Positions 5,612 to 40,164 of a stretch of DNA of 44,180 nucleotides are shown piece by piece. The DNA lies in NCBI GenBank assembly GCA_002796345.1, contig PCXC01000004.1, forward strand, positions 1 through 44,180. The letters run 5' to 3'. The number at the start of each line of letters is the position of its first letter. Position 1 is the first letter of the stretch. Origin of the DNA: Deltaproteobacteria bacterium CG11_big_fil_rev_8_21_14_0_20_42_23 (GTDB lineage Bacteria; UBA10199; 2-02-FULL-44-16). A program made the translations under genes and the position numbers. Below the pieces are notes generated by a model, which ran no database searches, was not told the origin of the DNA, and saw only the letters and a list, made by a program, of their open reading frames with translations.

Positions 5612-7000
5612 TTATCTTTGTGCTGATGGGCCTAAGAAAAGGACTTCAGAACGCAGTTCTCGTTGTTGCTTGTTTTCTTTTACTTTCACGGTAAATGAAA
5701 ATTCATGTGAAAAATGTTTGGCAGGCATTTCTACAAAAAAAGGAACCTGTTTATCTTCTAAACTTTTTAGAGAAATGCTTGTAATTGGCAAAAGCACATT
5801 TACTTCTTGCGGAGCTTCAACAGAAAGGAAAAAATTATTTTCCTCCCCTCCTTTGTTGGCGATATGCACTATAAACTGATTTCGAATATTTCCTTCACTT
5901 GTGAGCACATATGGCGCCTGCCCTAAAGCGCGCAGCGTATTTGCTTCGAAGGGTTTTCGCATCGTGACAAAAAAAGAAAAAACAGCAACACCGAGAAAAA
6001 AGAAAAAATTATAGAGCAAAAGCCGCGGCCTTATAATGCGTCGCGTTTTTTTCAACAACCCATTGAGTGAATCATAGCGAATCAAACCTGGAGCTTGTCC
6101 AATTTTGATCATAATTTCATTGCACGCATCGATGCAATTGGCGCAGCCAACACATTCAAGCTGCATTCCTTCGCGAATATCAATGCCAGTTGGGCAAACA
6201 TCCACACAACGATGGCAATTGATACATGCTCCGCGTGCGGGATCATTCTTTTTTCCTCTGGGCTCACCTCGTAAATAATCGTAGCCAATTACCAAGGTGT
6301 CATCATCGGCTAACGCAGACTGGATACGGCCATACGGGCAAACGATTAAACAGAGCTGTTCTCGAAACCATGCAAAGTGTAGGTAAATAATGCCCGTCAT
6401 TACCATCATCCACACAAACACTGGCCAATGTTCATACGGGCTTTGCTGCATGTAGTTCCACAAAATGGGAAGTGAAATAAAATAGCTCAAAAAAATATGC
6501 GTGATGACAAGGGCACAAAGAAAAAAGAGAAAATGTTTAACGGAAAACAAAAAGAGTTTTTTAATGTTCCAAGGAGCTTTTTCCAAAGCAAGCTGCGCCG
6601 ACCGTGGACCTTCTATCCAGCGCTCAATTCTTCTGAAAACTCCTTCCAAAAAAACAGTGTGCGGGCAAGCCCAGCCGCACCACAACCTTCCTGCAACTGC
6701 AGCAAGATAAAAAAGAGAAAAGGCAATGCCGGTCACAACAAAAAAAACCAGATAAAAATCTTGGGCATTAAACGTAAGCCCAAAAAGAAAAAACTTTCGG
6801 TGGGTAACGTCAATGAAAACAAGTGGATTCTCACCAATTTTTATCCACGGCAAAGCTGCATAAATAAAGATGAGGAGAAGGAAGACAAGTTTTTTCCAAC
6901 GCTGAAAAATTCCTTTTACATCGGCAATACGAATCTTAATTCGTTTTCCGTCGGTACGAATTGATGATGGCCGTTGATGAAGATCATTGGAATTTTCCAT
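5612..7000 (-). CDS. ccoG: cbb3 oxidase accessory protein CcoG (FixG/RdxA)
   Basis: CcoG, 462 residues, is a membrane-bound iron-sulfur protein needed for cbb3 oxidase assembly, proposed to reduce Cu(II) for CuB insertion. Membrane segments lie near residues 38-55, 82-105, 152-175, 195-212 and 328-346. Conserved cysteine pairs are in CGWACP (C108, C112) and CLIVCPYGR (C217, C221). A 2[4Fe-4S] ferredoxin domain follows, with C259, C262, C265, C269-Pro and C283, C286, C289, C293. The C-terminal 110 residues form the usual periplasmic Ig-like FixG domain. It begins six bases after ccoP and closes the cco operon. Shine-Dalgarno weak, so translation may be coupled to ccoP. No ccoH (fixH) is present. 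Confidence 0.97.
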   Translation of the reverse strand: MENSNDLHQRPSSIRTDGKRIKIRIADVKGIFQRWKKLVFLLLIFIYAALPWIKIGENPLVFIDVTHRKFFLFGLTFNAQDFYLVFFVVTGIAFSLFYLAAVAGRLWCGWACPHTVFLEGVFRRIERWIEGPRSAQLALEKAPWNIKKLFLFSVKHFLFFLCALVITHIFLSYFISLPILWNYMQQSPYEHWPVFVWMMVMTGIIYLHFAWFREQLCLIVCPYGRIQSALADDDTLVIGYDYLRGEPRGKKNDPARGACINCHRCVDVCPTGIDIREGMQLECVGCANCIDACNEIMIKIGQAPGLIRYDSLNGLLKKTRRIIRPRLLLYNFFFFLGVAVFSFFVTMRKPFEANTLRALGQAPYVLTSEGNIRNQFIVHIANKGGEENNFFLSVEAPQEVNVLLPITSISLKSLEDKQVPFFVEMPAKHFSHEFSFTVKVKENKQQRELRSEVLFLGPSAQR

Positions 7001-39856: not shown

Positions 39857-39960
39857 AACGCCTCTTTCGTTGCCTCAATAGTTCAGTTCTCTTATCAGCC
39901 TTTTCAAAGACTGCAAATGTGAAAAAAAATTCTGCCCCACTTCTGTGGAAAAGTTCGGAT

Positions 39961-40139
39961 AAAAAGAAGAGAACGAAAATTTAAAAAAAATACAACCTAT
40001 AAATTCGTAAGCTTTTATTTTATATCATTTTATTTTGATTAATTTTTGTGCATTCCGGAGAAAGAAGCATTTCGTATACACTCGAAGCCAAGCACATGGG
40101 TTTTATACACACACTTATCCACATTTTGTGTGCACAAAA
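39961..40139. other. Origin-like region: AT-rich tract, DnaA boxes, palindrome
   Basis: The 308-base gap between mutL and the S41B-like gene contains a 90-base tract (39961-40050) with about 18 percent GC by hand count, which could serve as a DNA unwinding element. About 50 bases further on come two perfect DnaA boxes, then the palindrome TTTTGTGTGCACAAAA (40124-40139). One near-match, TGTGGAAAA, lies at 39944-39952. The layout is that of a bacterial oriC or a DnaA-regulated promoter, but dnaA, dnaN, gyrB, mnmG and parAB are not in the window. Confidence 0.45.
40103..40123 (+). promoter_or_regulatory. Two perfect DnaA boxes in tandem
   Basis: TTATACACA (40103-40111) and TTATCCACA (40115-40123) both match the DnaA consensus TTATNCACA exactly, lie in the same orientation and are three bases apart. 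Two perfect boxes this close are unlikely by chance in a short gap. Confidence 0.65.
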
Positions 40140-40164
40140 AGTTTCACGAAAAAGCAGAACTTCG

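Follow-up and report, generated by a model that had tools for sequence, protein, structure and literature searches.

A DnaA-box element conserved beside plsB in an uncultured bacterial class resembles the DARS2 reactivation site of E. coli

The gap upstream of mutL in the genome of Deltaproteobacteria bacterium CG11_big_fil_rev_8_21_14_0_20_42_23 (81 contigs, 2.03 Mb) combines an A+T-rich tract with a group of DnaA boxes, which raises the question of whether it is the chromosome's replication origin, a DnaA-controlled promoter or a DnaA-regulatory site of another kind. The window, i.e., the whole stretch of DNA analyzed here, is contig C4 with its 44,180 bases. A sequence-only reading of it had proposed an "origin or DnaA-controlled site", and most of its description was confirmed: two DnaA boxes on the same strand and 3 bp apart are present at 40103-40111 (TTATACACA) and 40115-40123 (TTATCCACA), the 90-base tract of about 18 percent GC (39961-40050) measures 17.8%, the intergenic gap from the mutL start (39856) to the S41-peptidase stop (40165) is 308 bp long, and all genes between 25.9 and 39.9 kb point leftward but for an ORF at 31.5 kb. 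The reported 16-base palindrome (TTTTGTGTGCACAAAA, 40124-40139) is a dyad with 7-bp arms and a 2-bp centre and not a perfect palindrome. Overlooked were a third, inverted DnaA box hidden in this palindrome stretch (40129-40137) and a further minus-strand box at 39944-39952. The features of the site are as follows.

39857..40164, no strand: the whole intergenic element, from the mutL start to the S41-peptidase stop; orthologue of the gap 3' of plsB in relatives.
39918..39926, minus strand: weak distal DnaA box TTTTTCACA (2 mismatches).
39944..39952, minus strand: distal DnaA box TTTTCCACA, 159 bp from box III; counterpart of the relatives' left module (148 bp there).
39961..40050, no strand: A+T-rich tract (17.8% GC) between the distal boxes and the core, taking in most of the Fis-like site.
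40037..40051, no strand: Fis-consensus site GATTAATTTTTGTGC, 0 mismatches to GNNYAWWWWWTRNNC, its centre 71 bp from box II.
40103..40111, plus strand: DnaA box III TTATACACA, 3 bp from box II and on the same strand.
40115..40123, plus strand: DnaA box II TTATCCACA, a perfect consensus box.
40129..40137, minus strand: DnaA box I TTGTGCACA, opposed to boxes II and III, 5 bp from box II and overlapping the palindrome; its geometry is that of box I in E. coli DARS1 and DARS2.
40103..40137, minus strand: DARS-type core (I, 5 bp, II, 3 bp, III), 1 mismatch to TTATNCACANNNNNTGTGGATAANNNTGTGNATAA.

The tract belongs to the most A+T-rich part of the contig, the lowest-GC 90-mer of the whole window starting at 39958 (16.7% GC). 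The number of boxes alone is nothing unusual; their arrangement is. Indeed, TTATNCACA occurs 3 times in the window vs. 1.4 expected, a count reached in 16 of 100 shuffles, and this raw number near expectation is what a reading of the boxes as chance or low-complexity matches in an A+T-rich gap could appeal to. The three-box group, however, shows 1 mismatch in 24 specified positions, whereas the best result was 5 after dinucleotide-shuffling the window 300 times and 6 after shuffling the gap 2000 times. With at least 5 mismatches in every shuffle and an element conserved in 21 genomes, the chance reading is already refuted, and we consider its probability negligible. An Rfam search for structured RNA in the element returned two sub-threshold chance matches and nothing else.

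The idea of a chromosomal replication origin (oriC) draws on the A+T-rich tract adjoining the DnaA boxes, as well as on the skew of the window, which falls over 40 kb up to the site. A DnaA-box cluster and an A+T-rich tract are, however, insufficient alone, and a GC-skew switch is absent at the element in four relatives. The only full dnaA of the genome resides on another contig (C35), where it is accompanied by five TTATCCACA boxes and flanked by dnaN, recF and gyrB on one side and by rnpA-yidC on the other. Three genomes of the class (G034, G013, G006) have their cumulative GC-skew minimum at dnaA; in a fourth (G019), dnaA is near a local minimum and the skew reaches a lower point at a distance of 36 kb. 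Only 4 kb of the own contig follow the site, and skew across the element was assessed in four relatives with long contigs (270 kb in the case of G013), where the 20-kb means keep their sign: +0.08 to +0.13 in G013, +0.07 to +0.05 in G034, +0.06 to +0.05 in G028 and -0.04 to -0.03 in G014. The fork direction inferred for the element, which depends on gene order, is the same in six contigs (own, G006, G013, G014, G028 and G034). Because the dnaA locus is elsewhere and the skew passes unchanged through the element in relatives, the origin half of the earlier proposal was rejected: the element is not the chromosome's replication origin, the origin reading being already refuted for the relatives and highly improbable overall. 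The other half survives in the form of a conserved DnaA-box element.

Its conservation was assessed by tracing orthologues via MutL and then PlsB searches. Orthologous elements, one per genome, were found in 21 of the 46 class genomes and in 12 families (f1, f2, f3, f4, f8, f9, f11, f13, f15, f17, f18 and f20), beside plsB or at the former plsB place; among the same 46 genomes, 9 families (f5, f6, f7, f10, f12, f14, f16, f19 and f21) yielded no element. The sequence-only reading had suggested that absence of the boxes from close relatives should count against it; the opposite was observed, the boxes being strongly conserved. In the own family and order, the cluster occupies the gap between plsB and a convergent neighbour, 3' of plsB, and its left plus-strand box is 158-160 bp from the right-hand group. 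The PlsB search gave no match in the own genome, where an S41 peptidase stands in the place of plsB and the element is kept. A model trained on sequence only (R1, built from 18 copies) yielded one strong site per genome and recovered held-out sites at the same locus in G016 (3.6e-7), G019 (8e-5) and G024 (0.016), the element of G016 lying directly after a plsB fragment.

This distribution also bears on the idea that DnaA controls a promoter here, that of mutL or of the mutL-miaA-eno operon. The element does lie directly upstream of mutL in the own genome, and DnaA regulates promoters in E. coli (PMC11317965), but in relatives it sits in the convergent gap 3' of plsB, up to 42 kb from mutL (the approximate distance in G028), and 27 relatives do not share an ordinary promoter box cluster, that of the own uvrB. 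As a conserved function, a mutL promoter was therefore discarded as improbable, and a secondary effect on mutL in the own species is possible.

What the element most closely resembles emerged from the spacing of its boxes. Read on the minus strand, they form the series (+0,-14,-26), i.e., TTGTGCACA-CAAAA-TGTGGATAA-GTG-TGTGTATAA, and the same series was measured on sequence for the E. coli cores of DARS1 (+2108,-2122,-2134 in L287) and DARS2 (+2136,-2150,-2162 in L286). DARS cores are known to consist of three boxes with a common spacing and an opposed box I (PMC5742627), and all of these are found here, at a site which, by the relatives' skew and the location of the own dnaA on contig C35, is away from oriC. 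Subjected to the same triplet test, E. coli DARS1 and DARS2 gave 2 and 3 mismatches, vs. 6 for datA and 9 for oriC. A whole-genome search with the core pattern (up to 3 mismatches) hit 5 of the 46 class genomes, in all cases at the element locus, and produced 7 matches in 339 other genomes, while a reversed control pattern gave 0 matches in all 385. When 1.6 Mb of class DNA was scanned without bias for every triplet geometry, no more than two were seen three times or more: that of DARS, with 6 occurrences, each at this element, and +0/+12/-23, likewise with 6, which makes up the left module in f20 elements and is found close to dnaA in four genomes. In its complete form, the DARS triplet is at its best in f1-f3, f17 and f18 only; several families (f15, f13, f20, f8) have a weak or displaced box I. 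In E. coli generally, DnaA prefers double boxes with a 3-bp gap, and these also occur at non-DARS sites such as polA, purH and datA (PMC11317965). The DARS reading therefore depends on box I being opposed and on the Fis-like site being phased.

The Fis-like site is a 15-bp dyad between the two modules (GCCT-N7-AGGC in the best copies). It fits the Fis consensus, GNNYAWWWWWTRNNC, with no mismatch in the window copy at 40037-40051. Most copies of the element carry this site together with a distal DnaA box, and in nearly all copies keeping the right-hand boxes the dyad centre is 69-72 bp from box II. A joint search for Fis site and boxes gave 14 matches at this offset, fewer than 3 at every other offset from 30 to 129 bp, and none in 0.84 Mb around mutL of other phyla. 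As for a protein partner, the own genome encodes a 166-aa protein (L304 497-997, contig C42) that matches E. coli Fis over its C-terminal 72 residues (2e-11) and, over its full length, resembles the end part of NtrC; it is a putative binder of the dyad. Similar proteins are present in order members G003 and G006-G008, and elsewhere the best homologue is often of full NtrC type. Relatives of the protein range from Fis-sized frames to full NtrC-type proteins, and the 166-aa form is possibly an intermediate in the origin of Fis. Two families (f5, f21) are without both the element and the Fis-like protein. This co-occurrence lends weak support to a DARS2-type reading, because other families have the Fis-like protein without the element; moreover, it is weak or partial in two genomes with the element. 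E. coli DARS2 requires Fis and IHF (PMC4245941). The own genome has four genes of the HU/IHF family; a scan of the copies for IHF sites found none that is consistent, the window copy having only a one-mismatch match that overlaps box II and a perfect IHF consensus being limited to the G013 copy.

Overall, we interpret the element as a probable chromosomal DnaA-regulatory, reactivating site of the DARS2 type (estimated probability about 0.6), with the architecture observed and the activity predicted from it. Observed are the boxes in DARS order and spacing, the Fis-consensus site at a near-fixed distance and the distal DnaA boxes, in one copy per genome, away from the origin and in the same place in at least 12 families. 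By analogy with E. coli, where the DARS2 reactivation mechanism is established (PMC5742627, PMC4245941, PMC8682772), we infer DnaA binding, Fis binding and nucleotide exchange at the element. Boxes I-III would be the assembly site of ADP-DnaA, the box I and box II molecules facing each other head to head; the Fis-like or another DNA-bending protein at 40037-40051 would bend the A+T-rich DNA and activate the complex at a fixed phase; ADP would then be released and apo-DnaA would depart and rebind ATP, renewing ATP-DnaA for the next initiation. The distal boxes may allow a feedback by ATP-DnaA, like DnaA box V in E. coli DARS2. Several observations count against this reading: a weak or displaced box I in f15, f13, f20 and f8, a window copy without a clear IHF site, a Fis site about 70 bp from box II vs. 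about 130 bp for E. coli FBS2-3 (as read here), 3-bp double boxes at the non-DARS sites polA, purH and datA (PMC11317965), the 9 families in which the element was not found, and the presence of the Fis-like protein in families without it, as well as its weak or partial form in two genomes with it.

The main rival is a titration or datA-like element, which would soak up DnaA or promote ATP hydrolysis with no reactivation. A strong 3-bp double box, the best DnaA binder in E. coli and also present at datA (PMC11317965), fits such a role, as do the f15, f13 and f20 copies, in which a weak box I leaves the double box and the Fis site; furthermore, B. subtilis has six DnaA-box clusters outside oriC that are thought to titrate DnaA (PMC13220808). 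Nevertheless, datA itself misses the triplet by 6 mismatches, its arrangement of an IHF site flanked by DnaA boxes is absent from the window copy, and pure titration has no need for fixed spacings of +0/+12/-26 and 69-72 bp. We consider a DnaA-sink or datA-like role rather unlikely for the element as a whole and the chief alternative above all in families with a weak box I.

The analysis also touched on a number of other loci with DnaA boxes or genes of DnaA-related function. In the own genome, three DnaA boxes (+, -, -) immediately precede uvrB, the gene next to DARS1 in E. coli (contig C17 23854-23896; L045 8854-8896); this cluster was considered as a second, DARS1-like site and rejected, its third box being 8 bp off and the cluster being absent in 27 relatives. 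Three more boxes (contig C60 32679-32760; L046 7679-7760) lie upstream of a 1456-aa ORF that, by eye, looks like a ribonucleotide reductase with an intein-like insertion. Two ATP-grasp-like genes, mutually alike by eye, are found near the origin genes on contig C35 (L044 7578-8921 and 15644-16897), one of them between dnaA and dnaN. No Hda-like gene was found in the own genome: besides dnaA, PF00308 matched once in the recF region and in two very long frames. Frames of 245-281 aa that fit Hda do exist in several relatives. Among the core-pattern matches in the 339 other genomes, one (G327) is near uvrB, the gene beside E. coli DARS1, another (G083) between dnaA and dnaN, and a third (G108, of another group; L313 about 6534-6568) has a DARS-type core directly upstream of an hda-like gene. 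The +0/+12/-23 triplets near dnaA are those of L268, L274, L280 and L284 (G034, G013, G019 and G006, respectively).

Most knowledge of how DnaA is switched back on comes from E. coli. Conservation of the DARS2 core has been stated for E. coli-related gamma-proteobacteria (PMC4245941), B. subtilis is described as having no DARS loci (PMC13220808), and in the open-access literature we found no DARS outside the E. coli-related gamma-proteobacteria, this class included. That a DARS2-type reactivation site with a Fis-like activator bearing an NtrC-like front part operates in an uncultured class so far from gamma-proteobacteria appears to us evenly balanced between true and false. If true, site-driven recycling of ADP-DnaA would either date back much further than thought or have arisen twice with an identical box geometry, and the combination of core geometry, phased Fis-consensus site and class-wide conservation makes the choice between ancient and convergent reactivation directly testable. 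The core pattern also offers a cheap genome test, which gave 0 matches with its reversed control and found the uvrB-near (G327) and hda-like-upstream (G108) sites.

A side-by-side comparison with known systems places the element as follows. With the oriC of the class (the dnaA locus) it shares DnaA boxes, and the left module of f20 is the +0/+12/-23 triplet found near dnaA in G034, G013, G019 and G006, whereas the element is without a skew switch and adjoining origin genes. E. coli datA, too, is a group of DnaA boxes in non-coding DNA apart from oriC and has a strong 3-bp double box; it misses the triplet geometry (6 mismatches). The core of E. coli DARS1 (bioD-uvrB gap; 101 bp) is nearly the same in sequence, TTATCCACT-5-TGTGGATAA-3-TGTGTATTA vs. 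TTGTGCACA-5-TGTGGATAA-3-TGTGTATAA in the element, although DARS1 is short, occupies another locus and has no known Fis/IHF-dependent regulatory region. Finally, the element differs from E. coli DARS2 (rppH-mutH gap; 455 bp) in belonging to another bacterial class and locus (plsB/mutL), in the distance from Fis site to box II (about 70 bp vs. about 130 bp, with IHF sites nearer, in DARS2 as read here), in a window copy without a clear IHF site and with distal boxes about 160 bp away, and in a host Fis-like protein of 166 aa with an NtrC-like front part. Nevertheless, both are non-coding and away from oriC, and both combine a core of box I, 5 bp, box II, 3 bp and box III, with box I opposed, with a Fis-consensus site and more DnaA boxes on the regulatory side.
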